Assembly: GCF_003075095.1 (NCBI RefSeq)
Contig: NZ_QCZF01000010.1
Span: 62,001-126,000 of the forward strand
DNA: 64,000 bases
From: Blastococcus litoris
Lineage (GTDB): Bacteria > Actinomycetota > Actinomycetes > Mycobacteriales > Geodermatophilaceae
Reading direction: 5' to 3'
Shown here: positions 31,766-56,526 of the stretch, one piece after another
How positions within the stretch are numbered: the first letter of the stretch is position 1
Layout of the letters: every line of letters begins with the position of its first letter
Translations under genes and position numbers: made by a program
The notes under the pieces: model-generated
The model's input: only the letters and a program-made list of their open reading frames with translations
Databases searched by the model: none
Told to the model about the DNA's origin: nothing

Positions 31766-32635
31766 TCAGCCGAGCACGGGGAGGGTGCGCTTGGCGGCCA
31801 ACCGGTCCATGCCGGCTTGGATGTCGGCCGCCACCCGGTCGTAGATCTTCTGCACGTAGGCCGCGTCCTCGGCGCGCTCGGGATCGGTGTCGACCTCGAT
31901 CGGCTCCAGGATCTCGGTGCGGATCTTGGCCGGCAGCGGCACGTGCGCCGGCAGGATCTCGACCGCCAGGGGGAACGGGATCCCGGCGATGATCGGCAGC
32001 TTCGACCCGCGCAGCGTCTTCTTCAGCCCCAGCACCTTGTCCAGCGCGTTCGCCAGCCACTCGCCCTCGTTGAGGACGAAGACGGTGTCGTGCCCGCCGA
32101 CGGTGGCCACCGGCAGGATCGGGACGCCGGACCTGATGGCCTGCTTCACGAACCCCGTGCGGCCGCCGAGCGTCGCCACGTCGCGCTTGCGCCAGCTGCG
32201 CATCGAGTCCACCTCACCGCCCGGCCAGACGACGACGTCCTCCCCCTGGGCCAGCGCCGCGCCGACGCTCTTCCGGTTGGCGGCGATGACCCCGACGGCG
32301 CGGAAGTAGTCGCCGAGCCCGGGCGCGGCCATCAGCACGTCGTGCGCGGTGCCGTGCAGCACCCGCTGCCCGTCGAAGTGCTTCTGCCACGCGTTGACCA
32401 GCGACCAGGCGTCCATGGTCAGCGCCCCGCCGGAGTGCACACCGATCACCAGGGAGGTCTCGTCGGGCACCCGCTCCCAGCCGTCCACCTCGACCCGGAA
32501 GTAGTACTTCTCCAGCAGGTCCACGAAGGGCTGCTGGAGCTTCATCAGCGTCTCGTTGGGCGGGTGCGGCTCCATCGCCGCCCCGACCCGCCAGCTGATG
32601 AGTCGCTGCAGGATGTTCTGGTCGTCCTCGGCCAC
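31766..32635 (-). CDS. Phospholipid/glycerolipid acyltransferase-like protein
   Basis: The 289-residue protein belongs to the PlsC/DGAT2-like acyltransferase superfamily. In place of HX4D it has VHSGGALTMD, and downstream VVVWPGGEVDSMRSW replaces the EGTR block. That pattern resembles TMEM68/DGAT2-like enzymes. It would esterify a fatty acyl chain to a lipid or alcohol; the substrate is unknown. The GTG start at 32635 follows GAGGGAG. Confidence 0.85.
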   Translation of the reverse strand: MAEDDQNILQRLISWRVGAAMEPHPPNETLMKLQQPFVDLLEKYYFRVEVDGWERVPDETSLVIGVHSGGALTMDAWSLVNAWQKHFDGQRVLHGTAHDVLMAAPGLGDYFRAVGVIAANRKSVGAALAQGEDVVVWPGGEVDSMRSWRKRDVATLGGRTGFVKQAIRSGVPILPVATVGGHDTVFVLNEGEWLANALDKVLGLKKTLRGSKLPIIAGIPFPLAVEILPAHVPLPAKIRTEILEPIEVDTDPERAEDAAYVQKIYDRVAADIQAGMDRLAAKRTLPVLG

Positions 32636-37817: not shown

Positions 37818-39200
37818 GTGACGACGACCGCGACGATCCGCTCGGCCGCCCCCTACCTGCGGTCGTGGGTCGAGGCGCAGGCCGCGCACCGCCGGGTGCC
37901 CGGGGTGCAGGTGGCCGTCCGCTCCGGTGACGAGCTCGTCCTGTCGGCCGCCGTGGGTGTCGCCGACGAGACCACCGGCGCCCCGCTGACCACCGAGCAC
38001 CTGTTCCCCGTCGCGTCGCACTCGAAGACCTTCACGGCCACCGCGGTGCTGCAGCTGGCCGAGGCCGGCCGGATCCGGCTCGACGACCCGATCGGCCGGC
38101 ACGTGCCGGAGCTCGAGGGCTCGGACGTCGCGGCGGTGACGGTCCGCGAGCTGCTCGGCCACCAGGGCGGCGTCGTCCGCGACGGGGCGCGCGCCGACTT
38201 CTGGCAGCTGGAGCAGCCCTTCCCCGACCGGGACGGCGTGCTGCGCGAGGTCCTGCGGGCCGGAGCCGTGCACCGCCGCAACGAGCACTTCAAGTACTCC
38301 AACGCCGGCTACGGGCTCCTCGGCATGGCCGTCGAGGCGGTGACCGGGACCTCGTACGCCGACCACCTGCGCCGTGCCGTGGTCGAGCCGCTCGGGCTGC
38401 GCCGCACCGGCCCGGACCACGACCCGGCCCGCGCCGGCGAGTACGCCGCGGGGCACACGGGCCTGCTGCTGGGCGCCACCACCCGGGAGACGATCGCGCC
38501 GGCCCCCACCGGGGCCATGGCAGCGGCCACCGGCTTCTGGTCCACCGCGGAGGACCTCTGCACGTACGGGGCGGCCCACTTCCTCGGCGACGAGAGGCTG
38601 CTCACCGACGGCTCCAAGCGGCTGATGCAGCGGCTGGAGTCGGTGGTGACGGCGTACGGGCGCGAGGTCGGCCGGTACGGCGTCGGCATGGCGCTGCAGG
38701 AGGTCGGCGAGCGGCAGCTCGTGGGGCACAGCGGCGGCTATCCCGGCCACATCACGCTCACGCTGGTCGACCCGGTCGGCCGGCTGGTCGTCAGCGTGCT
38801 GACCAACGCCGTCGACGGGCCGGCGGAGGGCCTCGCGGTCGGGCTGGTCAAGCTGGTCGACCTGGCGCTGGCACCGCGCGCCGAGGTGGCGGCCCCGCCC
38901 GCCGGCGCACCGACGACGTCGTTCACCGGCCGGTTCGCGAGCCTGTGGGGTGTCCTGGACGTGGCGGAGCTGGGCGGTCGCCTGGTGCTCGTCCGGCCGA
39001 CGGCAGACGACCCGCTGCCGGGTGCGGAGGAGCTCGAGGTGGTGGACGACGACACCCTGCGGGTCGCCGCGCAGCCCGGTTTCGGCCCGGCCGGCGAGCT
39101 CGTCCCGGTGCAGCGCGACGCGGCCGGCCGCGCCGTCTCGCTGAGGCTGGGCGGGGTCACCCACCGCCGGCTCGCCGGGACCCCGGCTCGCCGGACGTGA
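37818..39200 (+). CDS. Serine hydrolase, class C beta-lactamase/esterase family
   Basis: The 460-residue protein has the nucleophile motif SHSK (Ser67, Lys70), the YSN motif (Tyr160-Asn162) and a late HSGG that replaces the KTG box. A C-terminal beta-rich domain extends past the hydrolase fold. No signal peptide is present, so it is more likely a peptidase or esterase than a drug-resistance beta-lactamase. GTG 37818 lacks a ribosome site; TACGCT at 37804-37809 suggests a leaderless message. Confidence 0.9.
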   Translation: MTTTATIRSAAPYLRSWVEAQAAHRRVPGVQVAVRSGDELVLSAAVGVADETTGAPLTTEHLFPVASHSKTFTATAVLQLAEAGRIRLDDPIGRHVPELEGSDVAAVTVRELLGHQGGVVRDGARADFWQLEQPFPDRDGVLREVLRAGAVHRRNEHFKYSNAGYGLLGMAVEAVTGTSYADHLRRAVVEPLGLRRTGPDHDPARAGEYAAGHTGLLLGATTRETIAPAPTGAMAAATGFWSTAEDLCTYGAAHFLGDERLLTDGSKRLMQRLESVVTAYGREVGRYGVGMALQEVGERQLVGHSGGYPGHITLTLVDPVGRLVVSVLTNAVDGPAEGLAVGLVKLVDLALAPRAEVAAPPAGAPTTSFTGRFASLWGVLDVAELGGRLVLVRPTADDPLPGAEELEVVDDDTLRVAAQPGFGPAGELVPVQRDAAGRAVSLRLGGVTHRRLAGTPARRT

Positions 39201-39294
39201 GCTCGGGGCACAGGGGCCGACCGTCGGCTCTGCGCCCGTACGCCCGTCCTACGCTGGGTTCGTCCCCCACCCGGGGTCTGACCGGAGGAGCCCC

Positions 39295-40188
39295 GTGACG
39301 ACTGACGAGGTCGACGTCCAGGGGATCGATCTGGAGGCGACGCTCGGCGCGCTCGCCTGGCTGCCCGGGGACCCGACGCTGCGCACGGCACCGGGGCGGT
39401 TCGAGCGGGCGACGCTGACCCCGGACGGGCCCGGTGGGCTCGTCGTCACGTGGTCCGGGTCGGCGGCCCGCATCGAGGCCGGCGGTCCTGGCGGCACCTG
39501 GCTGCTGACCCGCGCGCCGGGCCTGCTCGGGCTGCTGGACGACGTGACCGGGTTCGATCCGCGCGAGCAGCCCGTGCGGGATCTGTGGCGCCGGAACCGA
39601 GGCCGACGCATCGCCCGGACCAGCACCCTCTGGCACGACGCGGCCTACCTGATCGTGCAGCAGCGGATCAGCCGGGTGGACGCGGCGGCGCAGTGGAAAC
39701 GGCTGGTGCACGGCTACGGCTCGCCCTCGGAGACGGTGCCCGGGCTGGTCCACCCGCCGGACCCGGCGACGGTCGGACGGTTGGGCTCGGCGGACTTCCA
39801 CCGGCTCGGGATCGACCGCCGGCGGGCCGAGCACCTGGTGTCCGCAGCCCGGGCTGCGCGGGCACTGGCGCCGCTCGTGGACCGCCCGTTCGAGGAGGCG
39901 CTGCCCGCGGTCCGGTCGGTCCGCGGCCTGGGCCCCTGGACGTGCAGCTGCCTCGGCGCGCGCTGCTGGGGCGACCGGGACATCGCGATCGTCGGGGACG
40001 ACGGCATCCCGTCGATGGTCGCGTGGACGCTGGCCGGTGAGCCGCGGGCCGACGATGCTCGCATGCTCGAGCTGCTCGAGCCCCACCGCCCGCACCGGCA
40101 GCGCGTGCTCCAGCTCGTGCTCGCCGGCGGCCGACGCCCACCGCGGTACGGCCCACGGAGGCGTGCGAACGACATCCGTGGCCGCTGA
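39295..40188 (+). CDS. HhH-GPD DNA glycosylase, AlkA-like
   Basis: The 297-residue protein has an N-terminal beta domain and a C-terminal HhH-GPD domain. The helix-hairpin-helix is VRSVRGLGPWTCSCLG (about 207-221), and the catalytic Asp is in AIVGDDGIPS (Asp235/Asp236). AlkA-type enzymes remove 3-methyladenine and related alkylated bases. The GTG at 39295 follows GGAGGAG. The target base is inferred only from the family. Confidence 0.87.
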   Translation: MTTDEVDVQGIDLEATLGALAWLPGDPTLRTAPGRFERATLTPDGPGGLVVTWSGSAARIEAGGPGGTWLLTRAPGLLGLLDDVTGFDPREQPVRDLWRRNRGRRIARTSTLWHDAAYLIVQQRISRVDAAAQWKRLVHGYGSPSETVPGLVHPPDPATVGRLGSADFHRLGIDRRRAEHLVSAARAARALAPLVDRPFEEALPAVRSVRGLGPWTCSCLGARCWGDRDIAIVGDDGIPSMVAWTLAGEPRADDARMLELLEPHRPHRQRVLQLVLAGGRRPPRYGPRRRANDIRGR

Positions 40189-40355
40189 CCCACCGGCCTG
40201 CCCGTCACCTGCGCGCTCCGTGGTCGTTCGAGTTCTCGACGTGGCTCGCCGCCCGTGCGCCTGACGGGAGTCGGACGGCCCTGCGGTCGCGGCCGCGGCG
40301 CGGATGGGACACGTTCTCCTCTAGGGTTCGCGTCCCCGAGGAGAGGTGGGCAGGA

Positions 40356-42617
40356 GTGAGCCGACTGCAGGTGGGCGATGGGGCCTCCCTGATCGTGCTG
40401 GTCGACGCCTCGAGCGACACCGAACGCCGGCTGGTCCAGGCCGCGCTCGCGGAGGAGGCGTCCGGCCGGACCGCGACGGTGCTCCCCCTGCGCGGGTCGG
40501 CCCTCGAGCAGCCGCTGTCCGGCGCCGACCCGGACACCGTGGTGACCGCGCTCCGCGTCGCCTGGACGCCGCGGCACCCGGTGGGCCACGAGGAGGACGG
40601 CCGGCGGCGCAGGGGCCGCTGGTCGGCGGCCATGCCCTCGTTGCGCCGCCGCCCTCCCGGGCCGCTGCAGAAGCTGGCGCTCGACCGGGACCCTGACCGC
40701 GCGCAGGTGGTGCTGGCGGCGCCGGCGACCGTCGCCGAGCTGGCCGGGCGGTGGTCGGGCAACGGGTCGCTGCCCGACTTCGTCGCCCAGCAGGCGTCCC
40801 TCGCCCTCGACCGGGCCGAGCGGGGCGTCGTCGGCGAGCGGGTGAAGGTCCCCCGGCACGTGGTCGAGGCGATCGAGGCCAGCCCCGAGTTCCGCCGCGA
40901 GCTGTCCGCGCTCGCCGAGCGCCTGGACTGCCCCGAGGACGAGCTGCGCGCCCGCGCCACGAGCGCGCTGGACGGGCTGGTGGCCGCCGTCGACCCGGCC
41001 GCCGTCGAGGTGTTCACCGGCATGTTCCGGCCGCTGCACTCACGGGCGTGGGACGTGCAGGCCGACACCGACGGGCTCGCCCGGCTGCGGGAGCTCAACC
41101 GCCGGCACCCGCTGGTCTTCCTGCCCAGCCACCGCTCCTACGTCGACCCACTGGTGCTCGCCGACGTCCTCGCCGCGCACGACTTCCCCCGCAACCACGT
41201 GCTGGGCGGGGACAACCTGAGCTTCTGGCCGGTCGGTCCGCTGGCGAAGCGCGCGGGGATCGTCTTCATCCGCCGCAGCTTCGGCGACGACCAGGTCTAC
41301 AAGCTCGCCGTCCGCGAGTACTTCGCGTTCCTGCTGTCCAAGCGCTTCAACCTCGAGTGGTACATGGAGGGCGGCCGTTCCCGGACGGGCAAGCTGCGCC
41401 CCCCGCGGCACGGGCTGCTGCGCTACGTCGCCGACGCCGTCGAGCGCCGCCGGGTCGACGACGTCCTCCTCGTGCCGGTGGCCATCACCTACGACCAGCT
41501 CCGCGAGGTCTCGCTGATGGCGGCCGAGCAGGGCGGTGCCGCCAAGCGCGGCGAGGGCCTGTCGTGGCTGGCCTCCTACGCGCGCGAGCAGGTGAGCACG
41601 CCGCTGGGCACCGTGCACGTCGCGTTCGCCGAGCCGCTGTCCCTCGCGGCGGCGCTGGCCGCGGGGGCGGACCCGTCCGACCCCGACGCCCGGCGGCTGA
41701 CGCTGCAGAAGGTCGCCTTCCAGGTGGCCGTGGGCATCAACTCCGTGACGCCGGCGACCGCGACGGCGCTGGTCACCCTGGCGCTGCTGGGGGTCCGCGA
41801 CCGGGCGCTCACGCTCGGCCAGGTGCGCCGGGTGGTGGAGCCGCTGCTCGACTTCCTCGACGAGCGGGAGCTGCCGCACTCCGGCGGTGCGCTGCGCACC
41901 TTCCGCGGGGTGCGGCAGGTGCTCACCACGCTGGCCGGCCAGGGCGTCGTCACCGTCTACGACGGCGGCGAGGAGCCGGTGCACGCCATCGAGCGCGGCC
42001 AGCACCTGGTGGCCGCCTTCTACCGCAACAGCGCCATCCACCACGTCGTCGACCGGGCGATCGCCGAGCTGGTCATGCTCGGGGACCCGGTCGACCGCTG
42101 GGACGAGGCGTTCCGGCTGCGCGACCAGCTGAAGTTCGAGTTCTTCTTCCCGGAGCGCGACGCCTACCGGGAGCGGATCGGCGCGGAGCTCGAGCGCCTG
42201 GACCCGGAGTGGGAGACCGCCGACGGCCGCGAGGTGCTCTGCCGGGCGCCGCTCCTGGTGGCCCACCGGGTGCTGCGCTCGTTCGTCGACGCGCAGCTGG
42301 TGGTGGCCGAGCGGCTGGCGGCGAGGGATCCCCGCACGCCGGTCGTCGAGCCGGAATTCCTCGCCGAGTGCAGCGGGATGGGTCAGCAGATGCTGCTGCA
42401 GGGCCGGCTGCACGGGCCGGAGTCGCTGTCACGCGAGCTGTTCGCCACCGCGATGCAGCTGGCCCGCAACCTCGACCTGGTGGACCCCGGCCGCGAGGAG
42501 CTGGCCCGCAACCGGCAGGAGTGGGCGGCGCAGGTGCGCGACGTCGTCCGCCGCGTGGTCGTCATCGACGAGCTGGACGCCGCCGCACGGCGGGAGAGCG
42601 TGGGAGTGGAGCCGTGA
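40356..42617 (+). CDS. plsB: Glycerol-3-phosphate 1-O-acyltransferase
   Basis: The 753-residue enzyme makes lysophosphatidate from glycerol-3-phosphate and acyl-CoA. The catalytic HX4D motif is HRSYVD (259-264); GGDNLSFW, FIRRSF and MEGGRSRTGK are the other PlsB acyltransferase blocks, and the long C-terminal helical region matches PlsB2. GAGGAGAGG precedes the GTG, and TAGGGT at 40322-40327 may be the -10. It overlaps the next gene by GTGA, as in the M. tuberculosis plsB2-plsC order. Confidence 0.96.
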   Translation: MSRLQVGDGASLIVLVDASSDTERRLVQAALAEEASGRTATVLPLRGSALEQPLSGADPDTVVTALRVAWTPRHPVGHEEDGRRRRGRWSAAMPSLRRRPPGPLQKLALDRDPDRAQVVLAAPATVAELAGRWSGNGSLPDFVAQQASLALDRAERGVVGERVKVPRHVVEAIEASPEFRRELSALAERLDCPEDELRARATSALDGLVAAVDPAAVEVFTGMFRPLHSRAWDVQADTDGLARLRELNRRHPLVFLPSHRSYVDPLVLADVLAAHDFPRNHVLGGDNLSFWPVGPLAKRAGIVFIRRSFGDDQVYKLAVREYFAFLLSKRFNLEWYMEGGRSRTGKLRPPRHGLLRYVADAVERRRVDDVLLVPVAITYDQLREVSLMAAEQGGAAKRGEGLSWLASYAREQVSTPLGTVHVAFAEPLSLAAALAAGADPSDPDARRLTLQKVAFQVAVGINSVTPATATALVTLALLGVRDRALTLGQVRRVVEPLLDFLDERELPHSGGALRTFRGVRQVLTTLAGQGVVTVYDGGEEPVHAIERGQHLVAAFYRNSAIHHVVDRAIAELVMLGDPVDRWDEAFRLRDQLKFEFFFPERDAYRERIGAELERLDPEWETADGREVLCRAPLLVAHRVLRSFVDAQLVVAERLAARDPRTPVVEPEFLAECSGMGQQMLLQGRLHGPESLSRELFATAMQLARNLDLVDPGREELARNRQEWAAQVRDVVRRVVVIDELDAAARRESVGVEP

Positions 42618-45535
42618 GCAGCGAGCAGGAACCGGCCACGACCGCCCGGGCGGGCGAGTGGAGCGAGGAGCAGCTGCTCGCCGACGTCGAGGCGGCACCG
42701 CGCGGCCCTCGCGTCGGCGCGTTCTTCGACTTCGACGGCACGGTCATCGACGGGTACTCGCTGGCCGCCTTCGCCCGGCACCACCTGCGCTCGCTGCACG
42801 TGACGCCCGCCGACCTCGGGCAGCTGCTGCTGACCGGCCTGCGCGGGGTGACGACCGAGGAGGACTTCGAGCGGTTCACCGTCGCCGGCATGAAGGCGTG
42901 GGCCGGGCGCAGCGAGGACGAGCTGGTCGAGCTCGGCGAGCGGCTGTTCGTGCAGGGCATCGCCGGCTCGCTGTACCCGGAGGCCTGGCGGCTGGTCACC
43001 GCGCACCTGCGAGCGGGGCACACCGTCGTCCTCGCGTCGTCGGCGACCCGCTTCCAGGTGGAGCCGGCCGCCCGCGCCATGGGGGTGGAGCACATCCTGG
43101 TGTCGCCGGTCGAGATCGTGGACGGCATCTGCACCGGCCGGCCCGGGGGCCCGCTGCTGTGGCGCGCGGGCAAGGCCACCGCGGTGCGGGCGTTCGCCGA
43201 GGAGCACGGCATCGACCTGACGCGGAGCTTCGCCTACTCCAACGGCGACGAGGACGTGCCGTTCCTCCGCACCGCAGGCCGCTCCCGGGCGCTCAACCCG
43301 GGCAGCGGTCTGGAGGCTGCCGCCCGGCACTACTCGTGGCCGATCGCCCGGTTCCGCTCCCGCGGCCGCGGGGGGCCCGCCGAGCTCGCCCGGACGGCTG
43401 CCGGGATCGGCGGCATGCTGGGCGGCTTCGCCACCGGCGTGGCCATCGGCGCGCTCAGCGGCTCGCGGCGCGAGGCGGTCGACCTCGGCATCACGCTCGG
43501 CGGCGAGCTGGGCAGCGCGCTCGCCGGCGTGCGGCTCGACGTCCAGGGCGCCGAGCACCTGGCCACGCGGCCGGCTGTCTACCTGTTCAACCACCAGAGC
43601 CAGCTCGACGTGCTCGTGCTGGCCAAGCTGCTGCGCGGCGGGTTCACGGCGGTCGCCAAGAAGGAGCTGGCGAACACGCCGGGCTTCGGGCTGGCGTTCC
43701 GGCTGGCCGACGTCGCGTTCGTCGACCGCGGCGACCCGGCGAAGGCGCGCCAGGCGCTGGAACCGGCGGTCCAACGGCTGCGGGAGGGCATCTCGCTGGT
43801 GATCGCGCCGGAGGGGACGCGCTCGGCGACGCCGAACCTCGGCCCGTTCAAGAAGGGCGCGTTCCACGTCGCCATGCAGGCCGGGGTGCCGGTCGTGCCG
43901 ATCGTGATCCGCAACGCCGGCGAGCTGATGTGGCGGGGCGCGGCCACCATCCACTCGGGCACCGTGCAGGTACGGGTGCTGCCGCCGATCCCGACCGACG
44001 GGTGGACGGTCGAGGACATCGACGCCCGGGTGGCGGAGGTCCGCGCCCAGTACCTCGACACCCTGGCCAACTGGTCGGGACGCAGCGACCGCCCCGTCGA
44101 GGTCACCGAGGCCGGCGCCGACGACGGGGCCGCCGCTCCCCCGGCCACGCCGCTGGACTGGGGCATCTCACCGGAGATGAACCCCCTCGAGACGGCGATG
44201 TGGCGGGCGGAGGTGGCCGACCCGCGGCTGCGCAGCAACGTCACCCTGCTCGAGCTGCTGGAGCCCGCACCCGAGTGGGAGCGGCTGCGCGGGGCGCACG
44301 AGTGGGCCTCGCGGATGGTGCCCCGGATGCGCCAGCGGGTGGTCGAGCCGGCTCTCGGCGTGGGCGCGCCGCGGTGGGTGACGGTCGCCGAGCTCGACCT
44401 CGAGCACCACGTGCGGCGGGTGCGGCTGGAGGCTCCCGGCTCGATGCGGCAGCTGCTCGACGTCGTCGGCGAGTTCGCCGCCGCGCCGCTGGACCGCGAC
44501 CGCCCGCTGTGGGAGGTGCTGCTGGTCGAGGGACTGGAGGACGGGCGCGCGGGTTACGTCGTCAAGACCCACCACAGCACCACCGACGGCCTGGGCGCGG
44601 TGCAGCTGATGAGCCTGCTGCACAGCCGGACCGCCGAGCACGACCCGTCCCGCCCGGAGCCGCCGGTGCCCGCGCCCGGGGACGCCTCGCCCGTGGGCGT
44701 GCTGCGGGACCAGATCGTCGGTACCGCGAAGTCGGTACCGCTGGCCGCGCTGCGGCGCGGTGTCGGCGCGCTGGGCACCCTGCGGCGGCCGTGGGAGGCC
44801 GCGACCTCCGCCGTCGACGCCGCACGGTCGGCGACCTCGACGCTGTCGCCGCCGAAGAGCGGCTCGTCGCTGCTGACGCCGCGCGGGGGCGGCTGGCACT
44901 TCGAGGTGGCGGAGGTGCCGCTGGCCGACCTCAAGGCCGGGTCCAAGGCGGCCGGCGGCTCGCTCAACGACGGCCTCCTCGCCGCCGTCGTGGGTGGGTT
45001 CCGGCGCTACCACGAGCGGCTGGGGGCGCCCGCGGAGACGCTGACCCTGGGCATCCCGATCAGCCTGCGCGCGCAGGACGACCCGCAGGGCGGGAACCGG
45101 TTCACCGGCGCCCGGTTGCCGGCGTCGCTGGCCGAGCCGGACCCGGCGACGCGGATCAAGGCGATCCGCGAGTTCGTGCTGTCGGCGCGGAACGAGAGCG
45201 GCTCCGGCGTGCTCGACGACCTGGTCGGGCCGATCCTGGGGTGGCTGCCGGCGCCGGTGATCGGAGCGCTGTCCGGCTCGCTGACCAGCGCGAACGACGT
45301 GCAGGTGTCGAACATGCCGGGGGTGTCGCACCCGGTCTACATCGCCGGCTCCCGCATCGTGCGGATGTTCCCCTTCGGTCCGCTGCCCGGGTGCGCGGCG
45401 ATGATCACGCTGCTCTCGCACGAGGACACGTGCTGCATCGGGATCAACGTCGACGCCGCCGCGGTGACCGACCCGGGCGGGCTGGTCGCCGATCTGCAGG
45501 CCGGGCTGGACGAGGTCGTGGCGCTGGGCCGCTGA
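42614..45535 (+). CDS. Trifunctional HAD phosphatase - PlsC acyltransferase - WS/DGAT acyltransferase fusion
   Basis: The 973-residue protein joins three enzymes. Residues about 33-240 are a HAD-IB phosphatase (GAFFDFDGTVIDG, Asp39/Asp41; ASSAT; YSNGDEDVP). Residues about 305-490 are PlsC-type 1-acylglycerol-3-phosphate acyltransferase (NHQSQLD, His327/Asp332; APEGTR, 398-403). Residues about 515-970 are a wax-ester synthase/diacylglycerol acyltransferase (KTHHSTTDG, motif HHxxxDG at 653-659; late ANDVQVSNMPG). A glycine-rich hydrophobic stretch (262-282) lies between the first two. In Mycobacterium the HAD-PlsC part and the WS/DGAT part are adjacent genes. The open frame and all motifs are intact, so this is a real fusion. 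Confidence 0.94.
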   Translation: MSSEQEPATTARAGEWSEEQLLADVEAAPRGPRVGAFFDFDGTVIDGYSLAAFARHHLRSLHVTPADLGQLLLTGLRGVTTEEDFERFTVAGMKAWAGRSEDELVELGERLFVQGIAGSLYPEAWRLVTAHLRAGHTVVLASSATRFQVEPAARAMGVEHILVSPVEIVDGICTGRPGGPLLWRAGKATAVRAFAEEHGIDLTRSFAYSNGDEDVPFLRTAGRSRALNPGSGLEAAARHYSWPIARFRSRGRGGPAELARTAAGIGGMLGGFATGVAIGALSGSRREAVDLGITLGGELGSALAGVRLDVQGAEHLATRPAVYLFNHQSQLDVLVLAKLLRGGFTAVAKKELANTPGFGLAFRLADVAFVDRGDPAKARQALEPAVQRLREGISLVIAPEGTRSATPNLGPFKKGAFHVAMQAGVPVVPIVIRNAGELMWRGAATIHSGTVQVRVLPPIPTDGWTVEDIDARVAEVRAQYLDTLANWSGRSDRPVEVTEAGADDGAAAPPATPLDWGISPEMNPLETAMWRAEVADPRLRSNVTLLELLEPAPEWERLRGAHEWASRMVPRMRQRVVEPALGVGAPRWVTVAELDLEHHVRRVRLEAPGSMRQLLDVVGEFAAAPLDRDRPLWEVLLVEGLEDGRAGYVVKTHHSTTDGLGAVQLMSLLHSRTAEHDPSRPEPPVPAPGDASPVGVLRDQIVGTAKSVPLAALRRGVGALGTLRRPWEAATSAVDAARSATSTLSPPKSGSSLLTPRGGGWHFEVAEVPLADLKAGSKAAGGSLNDGLLAAVVGGFRRYHERLGAPAETLTLGIPISLRAQDDPQGGNRFTGARLPASLAEPDPATRIKAIREFVLSARNESGSGVLDDLVGPILGWLPAPVIGALSGSLTSANDVQVSNMPGVSHPVYIAGSRIVRMFPFGPLPGCAAMITLLSHEDTCCIGINVDAAAVTDPGGLVADLQAGLDEVVALGR

Positions 45536-45623
45536 CACCGCCCGTTCGTGCGCGCGGTAGGAAACACCGCGGGCGGTGCCGGCGTTGTGCCAGGCGTGCT
45601 CGACCAGAAGGAGGCACACACCC

Positions 45624-46139
45624 ATGACCACTGAGACGGCGATCCTCGCGGGCGGCTGTTTCTGGGGCGCCCAGGACCTGCTGCGCAAGCGTCCCGGCGT
45701 GCTCTCGACCCGGGTCGGCTACTCGGGTGGCGACACCCCCAACGCGACCTACCGGAACCACGGTGATCACGCGGAGGCGGTCGAGATCGTCTTCGACCCG
45801 AGCGTGATCTCGTTCCGTGAGCTGCTGGAGTTCTTCTTCCAGATCCACGACCCCTCGACGAAGGACCGTCAGGGCAACGACGTGGGCCGCAGCTACCGCT
45901 CGGCGATCTTCTACACCAGCGACGAGCAGAAGGCGGTCGCGCTCGACACGATCGCCGACGTCGACGCCTCCGGTCTGTGGCCGGGCAAGGTCGTCACCGA
46001 GGTGACGGCGGCCGGCCCGTTCTGGGAGGCCGAGGAGGAGCACCAGGACTACCTGGTGAAGTACCCCTACGGCTACACGTGCCACTACGTGCGGCCGGAC
46101 TGGGTGCTCCCCCGCCGCGAGGCGCAGACCGCCCAGTAG
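45624..46139 (+). CDS. msrA: Peptide-methionine (S)-S-oxide reductase
   Basis: The 171-residue enzyme repairs methionine-S-sulfoxide. The catalytic block is [10 protein letters not shown] with the nucleophilic Cys at about 13; [15 protein letters not shown] and [16 protein letters not shown] are the other conserved blocks. ATG 45624 follows AGAAGGAGG. Two strong hairpins lie downstream. Confidence 0.97.
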
Positions 46140-46148
46140 ACGGGCGTC

Positions 46149-46178
46149 GTGGGGCGGCATCTCGCGGTGCCGCCCCAC
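46149..46178. terminator. Hairpin terminator after msrA
   Basis: GTGGGGCGGCA (46149-46159) pairs perfectly with 46168-46178 (11-bp stem, 8-nt loop). No T-tract follows. With the next hairpin it separates convergent genes. Confidence 0.65.
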
Positions 46179-46183
46179 GGACG

Positions 46184-46221
46184 GAGGCCCCGCCCCCTGC
46201 TCGCGCAGGCGGCGGGGCCTC
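46184..46221. terminator. Second hairpin between msrA and the chemoreceptor-like gene
   Basis: GAGGCCCCGCC (46184-46194) pairs perfectly with 46211-46221, and the loop contains a further short stem. It probably terminates the minus-strand gene. Confidence 0.65.
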
Positions 46222-46275
46222 TCGACGGTCGGGGCCGACCTGGCGGAGAAGGCCCCGGCGGGCCGGCCCTGCTGC

Positions 46276-47829
46276 TCAGGAGGCCATCGAACCGAAGGCC
46301 GCTGCCATGCCCGCCTGCTCCTCGAGGACCTCACCGATGCGTGCCTGGACGACGTCGAGTCGTCCGATGATCTCGCTCGTCGCCTCGATGCCGGTGGTGA
46401 CGGTCTGGCTGGTGGCCTGGATGGCCGCGATCTGGTCGGCAACCCGCTGGGTGGCCTTGGCTGTTTCCCGGGCCAGGTCCTTGACCTCGCTGGCGACGAC
46501 GGCGAAGCCCTTCCCCGCCTCACCGGCGCGGGCTGCCTCGATGGTGGCGTTCAGTGCCAGGAGGTTGGTCTGCTCGGCGATGCCGGAGATGATCCGGATC
46601 ACCTCGCCGATCGCGTTCGACGCCTGCGAGAGCGCATCGACCTCGCCACTCATGGTCGATGCCTGCGTCACCGCCTGTTCGGCGACCCGTCCGGCGTCCC
46701 CGGCGGCTTCGCGCAGTCGGGCCACGGTGTCGAGCAGGTCACGCGCGCTGTCGGCCGAGGCCTCCGTGCGGCGCAGCACGTCGAGTCGCTGGGACACCAG
46801 CTGCTGGACGTTGCGCAGGGCAGCGGCACGGGACTCGGACAGCTCGATCGTCTCGGTGACGAAGAAGTCCATCGTGCCGACGACCCGGCCGCCGACGATG
46901 AGCGGGAAGCACACTCCCGAGCGGACACCGGCGCGCTGGGCGGCGGGGGCGCGCACGCAGTCGGTCACCTCCGCCAGGTCGCGGACGAAGTAGAGATCCC
47001 GGGCTCGCCACGCGCGACCGGACAGCCCGACACCTTCGGCGAAGCTGGCGGCCAGGGTGACCTTGCGGAACTCCTCGCCGGCGGACCCGGATTCCTGCTG
47101 GAAGCGCAGGAGTTGCGCATCCGCGTCCAGAGCCCAGTACGAGCCGTACGCCCAGCCGAAGGCCGTGCGTACCGTGTCCAGCGCGATCCGCAGGGCCGCC
47201 TCGGCGTTCGCCGCCGTGCCGATCTCGGTGACCACCGTCGTGACCGCGGCCCGGTCGTCGAGGGTCTCCCGCAGCGCGGTCCGGTCCAGGGCAGCTCGCC
47301 GGGCGTGGGCCACCAGCCGGTCCAGCGCTTCCCACTTCTCCCGACGGGCACCGACGAAGGTCATCGGCCCGGCGTTGTAGTACTCCTTCAACGCCACGAC
47401 CTGGCCGTCCTCGATGACGGGGACCAGGACCCCGTGGGTCGCACCGGCCGCTCGCGCCGCCTGCCACCGGAGGCACTCCGCAGGGTTGCTGGTGGCGTCG
47501 GTCAGCACCACCCGGCGCGTCCTGATCGCCTCGCCGCCGAAGCCGTCACCGGCCCGCAGTCCCTCGATCCGACCTCCGGGGGTGTTGGCGATGGCGGCGG
47601 CCAGCTGGCCGGACTCACCGACGAGCTGGAAGAACCCGCTCTCGTCGGCGACCCACACCGCGCCGTAGCCGAGCCCGAGAGCCTCGACCAGCGTCTCGCC
47701 CACGGTGCGGAAAGCGGCGGTGCGACTCTTGACGCCATCGAGGGCAGCGATGACCTTCTCGACCGCCTCCACGTCCCGCGGCATCGGAGCCGCCGACGGT
47801 GCAGCGGTGACCTGGGGACGACGGCGCAT
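46276..47829 (-). CDS. Soluble GAF-GAF methyl-accepting chemotaxis-like protein
   Basis: The 517-residue protein has two GAF-type sensor regions (about 20-175 and 190-350) followed by an MCP signalling coiled coil. The hairpin tip is conserved ([20 protein letters not shown], then [12 protein letters not shown]). No membrane helix or HAMP is visible, so it should sense an intracellular ligand. No che genes are in view, so its partners are unknown. GGAGAA precedes the ATG. Confidence 0.88.
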
Positions 47830-48179
47830 CGATTCTCCTGCTGTGGCTCACGCCGGGACGCACACGGTCAGGAACTCACACCACCGGATGGCCCACGACT
47901 GTTCTCTCGTCGAGGTTTGTCATCGGCGTGAGCTGCAGGTTGTTCAGCCGAAGAGCGCCGCCGTTACCTACCGGAGGGCCCGCTCCGATGAGCGGCACCG
48001 GAACGCCCGCGGCCGCAGTGCCGCATGCAGGAACGCAGCAACGGACACGGGGCGTGGGACCCGCTGGTCCCACGCCCCGTCCCTCGGTACCTGGCCGCGG
48101 GAGTCGTGCGCCGCACGCACGCGCGACCCCGCCGCCCGCTCTCGGGAGGTCCGTCACCTATCGGCGGACCGCCACGTTC
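47830..48179. other. Intergenic region of about 350 bp, no gene seen
   Basis: The region separates the start of the GAF-MCP gene from the stop of nrdJ. Apart from the strong hairpin at 48047-48080 nothing is recognised. A 93-codon minus-strand frame here is low-complexity and has no start signal. Confidence 0.7.
48047..48080 (-). terminator. Hairpin terminator downstream of nrdJ
   Basis: ACGGGGCGTGGGACC (48047-48061) pairs perfectly with 48066-48080, a 15-bp stem with a 4-nt loop (CGCT). It lies 100 bp after the nrdJ stop and has no T-tract. Confidence 0.7.
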
Positions 48180-51047
48180 TCAGCTGCAGCCGCTGGTGGA
48201 GCCGCAGCCCTCGCACACGTAGCAGCTGCCGGCCGGGCGCATCTTCGTGCCGCAGGTCATGCACAGCGGCGCGTCGGTGGCGGTGCCGGTCACCAGCTCC
48301 AGGAGCTCGGCCGAGGAGTGCGCCTCCTTGACCGTCTTCGGGCCCTCCGGGGTGACCTTCTCCTGGGCAGGGGCGGTCTCGATCGGCGCGGAGCTGCGCA
48401 GCTGCTCCAGGTCGACCTCCTCCTCTTCGGTGACCGTGGCGGTCGAGGCGGAGGTGCCGTAGCCGGAGACCTGGGCGGCCCGCTCCTCGGCGCTGAAGAT
48501 GCCGAGGGTGGCGCGCGTCTCGACCGGCAGGTGGTCGAGCGCCAGACGGCGGAAGATGTAGTCCATCACCGACTGGGCGATCCGGATGTCCGGGTCGTCG
48601 GTCATGCCGGCCGGCTCGAACCGCATGTTGGTGAACTTCTGGATGTAGGTCTCCAGCGGCACACCGTGCTGCAGCGCGATCGACAGCGAGATGGAGAAGG
48701 CGTCCATCACGCCGGCGAGGGTCGAGCCCTGCTTTCCGAGCTTGAGGAAGACCTCGCCGAGGCTGCCGTCCTCGTACATGCCGGCGGTCATGTAGCCCTC
48801 GGCGCCGGCGACGCTGAAGGACGTCGTGACGCTCGTCCGCTTCTTGGGCAGGCGCTTGCGCACCGGGTGCGAGAGCGCGGACGGGGCGACCTCTTCGACC
48901 TTTGCCTCGACCTTCTTGGCCTTGGCGTCGGACAGCGGCTGGCCGACCTTGCAGTTGTCGCGGTAGATGGCCAGCGCCTTGAGGCCCATCTTCCAGCCCT
49001 GGAAGTAGATGTTCTCGACCTCGTCGACGGTCGCCGTCTCCGGCATGTTGACCGTCTTGGAGATGGCGCCGGAGATGAACGGCTGCACCGCGGCCATCAT
49101 CCGGACGTGGCCCATCGGGGAGATGGCCCGCTCGCCCATCGCGCAGTCGAACACCTCGTAGTGCTCCGGGCGCAGGCTCGGGGCGTTGACGACGTGGCCG
49201 TGCTCGGCGATGTACTCGACGATCGCCTCGATCTGCTCCTCCTGGTAGCCCAGGCTCTTGAGCGCCCGCGGCACCGTCTGGTTGACGATCTGCATGGAGC
49301 CGCCGCCGACCAGCTTCTTGAACTTGACCAGCGAGAAGTCCGGCTCGATGCCGGTCGTGTCGCAGTCCATCATGAAGCCGATGGTCCCGGTGGGGGCCAG
49401 GACCGAGGCCTGCGCGTTGCGCCAGCCGTTGTCGGCACCGATCTCGAGGCACTCCTGCCACTGCTGCGTGGCGGCCTTGAGCACGTCGGCGTCGTCGGCG
49501 CCGACCGGGCGGATGGCGTCGTTGGCCGCGGAGTGCTTGCGCATGACCCGTGCGTGGGCGTCGGCGTTGCGGGCGAACCCGTCGTAGGCGCCGACGATGC
49601 CGGCCAGCTCGGCCGAGCGGCGGTAGGCGGTGCCGGTCATCAGCGAGGTGATGGCCGCCGCGAGGGTCTGGCCGCCGCGCGAGTCGTAGGCGTGGCCGGT
49701 CGCCATGAGCAGCGCGCCGAGGTTGGCGTAGCCGATGCCCAGCTGGCGGTACGCGCGGGTCGTCTCACCGATGGGCGCGGTCGGGAAGTCGGCGAAGCAG
49801 ATGGAGATGTCCATCGCCGTGATGACCAGCTCCACGGCCTTCACGAAGTTCTTCGAGTCGAACGTGCCGTCCGCCTTGAGGAACTTCATGAGGTTCAGCG
49901 ACGCCAGGTTGCACGAGCTGTTGTCCAGGCTCATGTACTCCGAGCACGGGTTGGACGCGTTGATGCGACCGGTCTCGGGGTTGGTGTGCCAGTCGTTGAT
50001 CGTGTCGTCGTACTGGATGCCCGGGTCGGCGCACTCCCAGGCGGCCTGGGTGACCTTGCGGAACAGGGTCTTGGCGTCGACGGTCTCGATGACCGAGTGG
50101 TCGAGGCGGGCACGCAGACCGAACTCGTCGCCCTCCTCCACCGCGCGCATGAACTCGTCGGAGACGCGGACGGAGTTGTTGGCGTTCTGGTACTGGACGC
50201 TGGTGATGTCCTTGCCGCCGAGGTCCATGTCGTAGCCGGCGTCGCGCAGCGCGCGGATCTTGTCCTCCTCGCGCGCCTTGGTCTCGATGAACTCCTCGAT
50301 GTCGGGGTGGTCGATGTCGAGGACGACCATCTTCGCCGCGCGGCGGGTCGCGCCACCGGACTTGATGGTCCCGGCGGAGGCGTCGGCGCCGCGCATGAAG
50401 CTGACCGGGCCCGACGCGGTGCCGCCCGAGGAGAGCAGCTCCTTGGACGAGCGGATGCGGGAGAGGTTGAGGCCGGCACCGGAGCCGCCCTTGAAGATCA
50501 GGCCCTCCTCGCGGTACCAGTTCAGGATCGAGTCCATCTCGTCGTCGACGGCGAGGATGAAGCACGCGCTGACCTGCTGCGGCGCGCTGGTGCCGACGTT
50601 GAACCACACCGGGGAGTTGAAGCTGAAGTACTGGTGCATGAGCATCCAGGTCAGCTCGTGCTCGAAGATCTCGGCGTCGCCCTCGGTGGCGAAGTAGCTG
50701 TGCTCGCGGCCGGCCGCACCGTAGGTGAGCACCACGCGGTCGATGAGCTGGCGGAGGCTGCTCTCGCGCTGGGGGCTCCCCACCGCGCCACGGAAGTACT
50801 TCGTGGTGACGATGTTCGTCGCGTTGATGCTCCACTCGGCGGGGAACTCCACGCCGCGCTGCTCGAAGTTGATCGAGCCGTCACGCCAGTTGGTCATGAC
50901 GACGTCGCGGCGCTCCCAGGTCACCTCGTCGTACGGGTGCACACCGGCAGTGGTGAAGACGCGCTTGATCTTCAGGCCCTTGCGGCTCGGCGCCTTGGCG
51001 CTGCGCCGTGCGCGGGTGCCGGCCAAGCGGTCGTCGGTCTCGGTCAT
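48180..51047 (-). CDS. nrdJ: Vitamin B12-dependent ribonucleotide reductase (class II)
   Basis: The 955-residue enzyme reduces ribonucleotides to deoxyribonucleotides with adenosylcobalamin. Class II signatures include NSPVWFNVG, FKGGSGAGLNLS, NPCSEYMSLDNSSCNLASLNL in part, and APTGTIGFMMDCDTTG. The C-terminus has a Cys-rich tail (CMTCGTKM, CYVCEGCG, ending GCS) that probably relays reducing equivalents. It lies 122 bp downstream of nrdR in the same direction, so both are likely cotranscribed and NrdR-controlled. No cobalamin riboswitch is evident in the gap. Confidence 0.98.
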   Translation of the reverse strand: MTETDDRLAGTRARRSAKAPSRKGLKIKRVFTTAGVHPYDEVTWERRDVVMTNWRDGSINFEQRGVEFPAEWSINATNIVTTKYFRGAVGSPQRESSLRQLIDRVVLTYGAAGREHSYFATEGDAEIFEHELTWMLMHQYFSFNSPVWFNVGTSAPQQVSACFILAVDDEMDSILNWYREEGLIFKGGSGAGLNLSRIRSSKELLSSGGTASGPVSFMRGADASAGTIKSGGATRRAAKMVVLDIDHPDIEEFIETKAREEDKIRALRDAGYDMDLGGKDITSVQYQNANNSVRVSDEFMRAVEEGDEFGLRARLDHSVIETVDAKTLFRKVTQAAWECADPGIQYDDTINDWHTNPETGRINASNPCSEYMSLDNSSCNLASLNLMKFLKADGTFDSKNFVKAVELVITAMDISICFADFPTAPIGETTRAYRQLGIGYANLGALLMATGHAYDSRGGQTLAAAITSLMTGTAYRRSAELAGIVGAYDGFARNADAHARVMRKHSAANDAIRPVGADDADVLKAATQQWQECLEIGADNGWRNAQASVLAPTGTIGFMMDCDTTGIEPDFSLVKFKKLVGGGSMQIVNQTVPRALKSLGYQEEQIEAIVEYIAEHGHVVNAPSLRPEHYEVFDCAMGERAISPMGHVRMMAAVQPFISGAISKTVNMPETATVDEVENIYFQGWKMGLKALAIYRDNCKVGQPLSDAKAKKVEAKVEEVAPSALSHPVRKRLPKKRTSVTTSFSVAGAEGYMTAGMYEDGSLGEVFLKLGKQGSTLAGVMDAFSISLSIALQHGVPLETYIQKFTNMRFEPAGMTDDPDIRIAQSVMDYIFRRLALDHLPVETRATLGIFSAEERAAQVSGYGTSASTATVTEEEEVDLEQLRSSAPIETAPAQEKVTPEGPKTVKEAHSSAELLELVTGTATDAPLCMTCGTKMRPAGSCYVCEGCGSTSGCS

Positions 51048-55832: not shown

Positions 55833-56526
55833 GTACCCAGCGTGACAGAACGATTGCATCGAGTCGGTGAACCACGCCCAACAGCACGATCCCCACGGCC
55901 CCTCCGACGACCGCGTCGGTGATCCAGTGGAAGTCCAGCGACACCATCGCGACGCCGGTCGCGACGGGCCCGACGATGCTGAGCCACCAGAAGGCGCGCT
56001 GCACGCGGGCGGGCAGGTCGTACTCCACGGCCAGCCAGCGTGCGACGCCCCACATGATGACCGCGTTCGCCACGTGCCCGGACGGGAACGAGGCGCCGTC
56101 GAGGTGGAAGAACACCTCGTCCGGGTGGCCGGGAGCGGTGCGCCCGGTTCCGTGCTTGACCGCGTAGACGCCGAGGGTCAGCGTCCCGAGGGCCAGCAGC
56201 ACCCGGAGCAGGGGCAGCCACGTGCGGTAGCGCCAGCCGAGGTAGCCGACCAGGACCGCCAGCACGCCGAGGATGGTGCCCCGCCCGCCGAGCTGGGTCA
56301 CCGCCCAGACGAACGGGTACCCGGCCGAGTCGCGCAGCCCCCAGCCGCGGACGGCGTGGGAGATGCGCAGGTCGAGCCGCTCCAGGACGCCGCCGGTGAG
56401 CAGATCGGCCGTGATCAGCGCCCCGACCAGGAGCGCGACGAGCATCAGCCACCACGGCGGGCGCCCGATCGACACGACGCGGGTCCGCTCGGCCGCGCCG
56501 GCGTCCCGCACCGCGCCGCTGGTCAC
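55807..56526 (-). CDS. PAP2-family phosphatase
   Basis: The 239-residue membrane protein has six predicted helices and all three PAP2 motifs: KHGTGRTAP, FPSGH and SLDFHWITD. It dephosphorylates a lipid phosphate such as phosphatidate or undecaprenyl diphosphate on the outer face. GTG 56526 is the first start. Its end overlaps the next gene by 26 bp if that gene starts at 55832. Confidence 0.93.
   Translation of the reverse strand: MTSGAVRDAGAAERTRVVSIGRPPWWLMLVALLVGALITADLLTGGVLERLDLRISHAVRGWGLRDSAGYPFVWAVTQLGGRGTILGVLAVLVGYLGWRYRTWLPLLRVLLALGTLTLGVYAVKHGTGRTAPGHPDEVFFHLDGASFPSGHVANAVIMWGVARWLAVEYDLPARVQRAFWWLSIVGPVATGVAMVSLDFHWITDAVVGGAVGIVLLGVVHRLDAIVLSRWVRARGRQTA

Follow-up and report, generated by a model that had tools for sequence, protein, structure and literature searches.

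The enzyme that dephosphorylates phosphatidic acid on the way to triacylglycerol in actinobacteria is unsettled, and the available parts of two reports suggest HAD domains for this step and call for more work (PMC4850399, PMC10351704). According to the excerpts of Amara et al. 2016, the HAD domain of the PlsC protein of Rhodococcus jostii RHA1, encoded in an atf9-plsB-plsC operon, is a possible phosphatidate phosphatase, in which case a single operon would specify every step of the line in vegetative growth (PMC4850399). Earlier reports that the Mycobacterium tuberculosis protein Rv2483c converts lysophosphatidic acid (LPA) to phosphatidic acid are cited in a text whose accessible portions also list the homologues Rv2483c and Rv2484c among lipid-inclusion-associated proteins (PMC10699116), and the portions available of another work name Rv2483c just among other PlsC candidates (PMC10593935). 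In addition, AGPAT-HAD genes are described beside WS/DGAT (wax ester synthase/diacylglycerol acyltransferase) genes in marine Actinomycetota and some Proteobacteria, the AGPAT-HAD function being still to be shown according to the excerpted statements of the authors (PMC10351704). The subject of the present work is a two-gene cassette of Blastococcus litoris (Geodermatophilaceae), composed of plsB and of a gene in which HAD, PlsC and WS/DGAT domains are joined in one polypeptide. It lies in a stretch of 64,000 nucleotides, here called the window (positions 62,001-126,000 of contig NZ_QCZF01000010.1, assembly GCF_003075095.1), to which all coordinates refer; the genome is a draft of 4.63 Mb in 87 contigs, with a completeness of 99.96%.

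The fusion gene is a single open frame from GTG to TGA, encoding 973 residues (P0001), and, as far as the open-licence literature shows, it is a previously unreported architecture of known parts; no report of the three-domain fusion was found in the parts of that literature available, which does not prove its absence in print. The raw open reading frame call extends upstream into plsB, the likely start being the conserved GTGA at which the start of the fusion overlaps the plsB stop. This overlap is found in all 14 intact copies of the family (window included), and the candidate start codons of the Pseudonocardia fusions are scattered around the plsB stop. The original prediction of three catalytic signatures in one frame, joined by GTGA to plsB, was borne out residue by residue, with profile scores above the cut-offs. 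The features of the cassette are the following.

40286..45536, + strand: two-gene cassette of plsB and the fusion, a DNA block common to relatives with different flanks
40356..42617, + strand: plsB, glycerol-3-phosphate acyltransferase, 753 residues (P0002); PRK03355 804.8 bits (cut-off 721), GPAT_C PF19277 4e-70
42614..45535, + strand: HAD-PlsC-WS/DGAT fusion gene, 973 residues, from frame, profiles, motifs and model
42614..42617, + strand: GTGA, start of the fusion overlapping the plsB stop, in 14/14 intact family copies
42719..43270, + strand: HAD-IB phosphatase domain, residues 36-219 (PF12710 span)
42728..42742, + strand: HAD motif I, DFDGT, residues 39-43; both Asp in 26/26 fused and 79/81 split rows
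43238..43255, + strand: HAD motif IV, SNGDED, residues 209-214, first position Asn210; Asn in 26/26 fused rows
43376..43525, + strand: two helices preceding the PlsC core, a likely membrane anchor, residues 255-304
43532..43909, + strand: PlsC-type 1-acylglycerol-3-phosphate acyltransferase domain, residues 307-432 (PF01553, TIGR00530)
43589-43609, + strand: PlsC motif NHQSQLD, residues 326-332
43811-43822, + strand: PlsC motif EGTR, residues 400-403
44084..44131, + strand: disordered linker from PlsC to WS/DGAT, residues 491-506; predicted local distance difference test (pLDDT) below 50
44177..44971, + strand: WS/DGAT N-terminal catalytic part, residues 522-786 (PF03007 span)
44570-44590, + strand: WS/DGAT motif HHSTTDG, residues 653-659
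44966-44971, + strand: WS/DGAT motif ND
45092..45514, + strand: WS/DGAT C-terminal part, residues 827-967 (PF06974 4.4e-18)

All three parts are recognized by Pfam above cut-off (HAD PF12710, 1.1e-33; Acyltransferase PF01553, 9.3e-34; WS_DGAT_cat PF03007, 1.4e-52; and WS_DGAT_C), and by curated models: TIGR01490 for HAD-IB hydrolases at 131.5 bits against a cut-off of 98.3 (135.6 with residues 1-250 alone), TIGR00530 for PlsC/AGPAT at 106.3 against 102.95, and TIGR02946 for WS/DGAT at 320.9 against 309.95, this last spanning model positions 1-451 of 453. The catalytic signatures of the three domains are identical across the 14 intact family copies. Furthermore, the HAD residues D, D, S, K, E and D are conserved in 26/26 fused copies, the PlsC residues H, D, E and R in all 107 aligned rows, fused and split, and the HHxxxDG motif is intact in 25/26 fused copies and in 15/15 of the family. 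The PlsB translation contains the HxxxxD and GGRSRTGK motifs.

An AlphaFold model built on an alignment of 118 rows reached a mean pLDDT of 89, with a predicted template modelling score (pTM) of 0.56, so that the relative placement of the domains is not fixed; an earlier model from 14 rows (pLDDT 40) was set aside as poor. Structure comparison gave matches to 6chj, 5kym, 3fvv and 3m1y, that is, to solved WS/DGAT, PlsC and HAD folds, in a list drawn mostly from the WS/DGAT part (model residues 512-973), HAD and PlsC being thinly sampled. The fusion probably sits at the membrane by means of the PlsC helices.

Intact fusions are present in 14 of 112 Geodermatophilaceae genomes: the window's own, G013, G033, G017 and ten of genus code g5, among them named Geodermatophilus strains. 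The original prediction had allowed for a frameshift or stop between the PlsC and WS/DGAT parts on resequencing, which the 13 other intact family copies, 80-92% identical to the window's, make very unlikely. The copy of G010 (G010:C1:4424063-4426980) is frame-split, the break lying in the variable middle of WS/DGAT (query 715-749); an indel error is possible, this genome being one contig at 95% completeness. G023 and G025 hold HAD-PlsC without the WS/DGAT part, and the match in G023 contains three stops. The genome search for the three-domain architecture that the original prediction had proposed included a scan of one genome per species (84,980 species) with two short peptide patterns of the HAD region, which yields counts that are a lower bound: among the 80 loci listed, at least 18 have a fused frame, seven being Geodermatophilaceae already counted and 11 Pseudonocardia, and two of these at least 11 Pseudonocardia loci are cut by a contig end. 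In total, at least 26 distinct fused copies were obtained, 25 besides the window's (G010 included), with 60-93% identity and in two families. A sample of 396 genomes of the phylum, searched at E 1e-60, gave no fusion besides the window's own; the architecture therefore looks rare, and the possibility that it is common across the phylum was rejected. Apparent fusions in Spongiibacteraceae, Woeseiaceae and Nevskiaceae were likewise rejected, since open reading frame analysis gave separate frames. A plasmid-borne cassette was rejected, since 72,556 plasmid records at E 1e-60, with near records possibly omitted, gave two matches, each covering at its best place the HAD-PlsC half only, and none covering 80% of the protein.

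The fused forms are, on their aligned sequences, one clade in two actinobacterial families. In the HAD-PlsC tree (57 rows), the 19 fused rows form one side of a branch with support 100/99, their sister being Actinomycetospora (Pseudonocardiaceae) with split HAD-PlsC (93/92). The WS/DGAT tree (48 rows) also has a single fused clade (100/100), nested in a wider WS/DGAT group of which many members adjoin HAD-PlsC genes, and separate from the three further WS/DGAT matches found in the genome that holds the window. The plsB tree, made from 38 rows by a quick method, has one cassette clade, divided into Geodermatophilaceae and Pseudonocardia, with a Shimodaira-Hasegawa-like approximate likelihood ratio test (SH-aLRT) value of 100. 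Long end branches were flagged in all three trees. The position of Actinomycetospora suggests an origin of the fusion in Pseudonocardia; this stays a suggestion, since the HAD-PlsC tree gives no clear root within the fused clade and the plsB tree no clear sister of the cassette clade.

As to how the fusion was formed, split HAD-PlsC, plsB and WS/DGAT genes adjoin one another in both Actinomycetota and Pseudomonadota, and as separate genes in the order of the fusion they are found in G420 and G430, genomes from the taxonomic order to which the window's genome belongs, and in Spongiibacter and two Panacagrimonas loci. Zhongshania, Spongiibacter and one Woeseiaceae genome have HAD-PlsC and WS/DGAT in the same frame with a single stop between them, which would make loss of that stop a simple route to the fusion; it probably arose in this way, from a row of plsB, HAD-plsC and WS/DGAT. 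The original prediction had pointed to separate genes in the order Rv2482c-Rv2484c. Separate neighbours do occur in relatives, and G043 (family f8) reads in that manner, with WS/DGAT, HAD-plsC and plsB; the fusion has its parts arranged differently, and named Mycobacterium loci (L125, L138 and L149, for example) differ, having HAD-plsC followed by plsB and WS/DGAT on the opposite strand. The order in G048 is WS/DGAT, plsB, HAD-plsC. The conserved Met522 was considered as a relic start codon and rejected, since split WS/DGATs often have Leu there and no well-placed ribosome site was seen in the window.

At E 1e-60, a plsB match was obtained for all 15 fusion-bearing family genomes versus 1 of the 97 others (G025, with split HAD-PlsC), so that plsB of this type is not matched in 96 of the 112 family genomes. 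The blastn blocks common to the window and G013, G033 and G010 start at 40282-40331 and end at 45531-45536, comprising the two genes with little flank. In stretches of 15-19 kb each from G017, Geodermatophilus and Pseudonocardia, the cassette block or most of it is common and the flanking DNA is not, aside from short matches of one WS/DGAT gene to another in three of the stretches compared. In the window, the cassette stands between a beta-lactamase-family gene and nrdJ (39170-48180), neighbours which are 9.0 kb apart. The gene immediately upstream of the cassette (39295-40188) was tried as a marker of the locus; it is matched in 14/37 genomes at E 1e-40, and since G013 and G010 lack a match, the beta-lactamase-family gene was taken instead. 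G033 has both neighbours in common with the window, G013 at least the beta-lactamase-family gene, and in G010 the likeness is confined to DNA further upstream. Among genomes of this genus that lack the cassette, the distance from the beta-lactamase-family gene to nrdJ is about 140 bp in G012, about 810 bp in G002 and 6.1 kb in G011. The cassette is thus present or absent at this site, and it is probably a compact accessory pair of genes exchanged between lineages.

Selection was assessed by the ratio of nonsynonymous to synonymous substitution rates (dN/dS) for the three pairs among the window, G013 and G033. Values were 0.055-0.078 for HAD, the lowest or near-lowest of the segments, 0.075-0.144 for PlsC and 0.056-0.115 for the N- and C-terminal parts of WS/DGAT, as compared with 0.34-0.70 for the PlsC-WS/DGAT linker (residues 489-519). 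Purifying selection acts on all three domains.

The simplest reading of these data, as in the original prediction, would be a line from glycerol-3-phosphate to triacylglycerol. PlsB would acylate glycerol-3-phosphate to 1-acyl-glycerol-3-phosphate (LPA), the PlsC domain would convert LPA into phosphatidic acid, the HAD domain would remove the phosphate to give diacylglycerol, and the WS/DGAT domain would form triacylglycerol. The PlsB, PlsC and WS/DGAT steps are supported by family membership, and the HAD step is suggested by context; the LPA acyltransferase and diacylglycerol acyltransferase activities and the acyl-CoA donor are predicted from what is known of these families. The pathway is plausible, its debatable part being the phosphatase step, and this role of HAD, together with any channelling, is the least certain element. 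An accessory two-gene, acyl-CoA-dependent Kennedy line, with HAD as the phosphatidate phosphatase, is our best reading, to which we give an even chance. A phosphatidate phosphatase role of the HAD domain had been proposed before, by Amara et al. for the rhodococcal PlsC-HAD. A stronger version is put forward tentatively and appears rather doubtful: a transferable two-gene pathway would cover nearly all the steps between glycerol-3-phosphate and triacylglycerol, the PlsC-linked HAD-IB domain would be a phosphatidate phosphatase of actinobacterial triacylglycerol synthesis other than PAP2, and the chain would commit the PlsB product to storage, away from phospholipid synthesis.

A number of observations weigh against this Kennedy line, and most of them concern HAD. 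The original prediction had stated that the phosphatidate phosphatase step lacks a soluble bacterial enzyme in many actinobacteria. In this genome other phosphatases are not lacking, 11 PAP2-family matches being possible suppliers of diacylglycerol. The fusion might then make phosphatidic acid and triacylglycerol with diacylglycerol derived from PAP2-type phosphatases, HAD acting on another phosphate (lysophosphatidate or a soluble phosphomonoester) or regulating PlsC, a possibility which deserves to be taken seriously and against which we lean. In its favour, an NCBIfam scan of the HAD domain with E up to 0.01 matched no named lipid-phosphatase model, the nearest named HAD models being histidinol and serine phosphatases, far under cut-off. 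The first position of HAD motif IV, a metal ligand, is usually Asp. In the fusion, motifs I, II and III and the ED of motif IV are present and motif IV opens with Asn, which leaves the predicted metal site uncertain; among the 81 split rows, this position is Asn in 65, Asp in 14 and another residue in two, so that Asn is the common state in the family and not a sign of decay. In the literature, as far as the parts available go, no assay of any HAD-PlsC protein and no test of a phosphatase role for its HAD domain were found. Moreover, the split homologue L052 (family f8, genus g31) has ELG replacing the DxD of motif I with its PlsC motifs intact, so that HAD may be lost without loss of PlsC. 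What speaks for the phosphatase step is that HAD adjoins the enzymes of the steps directly before and after it, and that its dN/dS is as low as given above; low PAP2 transcripts in RHA1 according to the excerpts of Amara et al. (PMC4850399) point in the same direction.

Separately, an open frame without HAD motif I was observed in L016 (also family f8, genus g31), within a match containing a TAG codon.

The storage end of the Kennedy line is also subject to doubt. WS/DGATs are promiscuous, and the WS/DGAT part could take another acyl acceptor, such as a fatty alcohol, or become a scaffold, the protein serving mainly phospholipid synthesis in growth; this we regard as improbable. Pseudonocardia nigra (L085:6001-8754) has HQxxxDE replacing HHxxxDG, the second His being Gln, and in its subclade (L085; L081, L082, L084) WS/DGAT evolves faster than the constrained HAD. 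In addition, in RHA1 under nitrogen limitation, when triacylglycerol accumulates, plsC and atf9 changed by -50 and -35 fold, their transcripts being higher under nitrogen excess (Table 1 of the part available of PMC4850399), an argument against stress storage as their function in that organism. The other fused copies argue against such a change of acceptor, by the near-universal HHxxxDG and the low WS/DGAT dN/dS already given. Finally, an assembly artefact or a decaying, functionless fusion, to which the split frame of G010 could be related, is extremely improbable and was rejected in view of the 25 other distinct fused copies, the purifying selection in every domain and the confident predicted fold.

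Other lipid genes of the genome place the cassette in context. Ten PF01553 matches were found, two of them being the fusion and plsB; together with the PAP2-family matches, they imply that the cassette is not the sole possible source of diacylglycerol or phosphatidic acid. PlsY (PF02660) was not found in this genome, in a search whose control was positive in 8/14, and mycobacteria are likewise reported without plsX and plsY in the accessible part of PMC10593935. Within the window, one PAP2-family match is located at about 55861-56211 (- strand), roughly 10 kb beyond the cassette on its downstream side, and another PF01553 acyltransferase match at about 32105-32497 (- strand), upstream of it.

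For the study of actinobacterial triacylglycerol synthesis, a chain in which LPA acyltransferase, HAD and diacylglycerol acyltransferase are joined by nature is strong contextual evidence, and it offers one construct for assaying the steps from LPA to triacylglycerol together. The two-gene cassette would, moreover, be a compact tool for triacylglycerol production in other bacteria.

Compared with known systems, the nearest are the PlsC-HAD of RHA1 (PMC4850399) and its counterpart Rv2483c, which, in the available descriptions, have plsB and WS/DGAT gene neighbours and are suggested to be bifunctional, but WS/DGAT is a separate gene there and part of the same polypeptide here. The AGPAT-HAD and WS/DGAT clusters, as far as described in the excerpts of PMC10351704, bring the same three domain types together, but in separate genes, and the split rows of G420, G430, Spongiibacter and Panacagrimonas have the gene order of the fusion, but as three genes. 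The bacterial WS/DGATs of Marinobacter (6chj) and Acinetobacter (AbWSD1, 7nxg) are alike in sequence and fold, and are stand-alone enzymes. The PlsC of Thermotoga maritima (5kym), a structural match across residues 2-247 of its chain, has neither HAD nor WS/DGAT in that chain. Lipin and Pah1, in the sources available, are eukaryotic phosphatidate phosphatases of the HAD type, for which no homology to the fusion is claimed.
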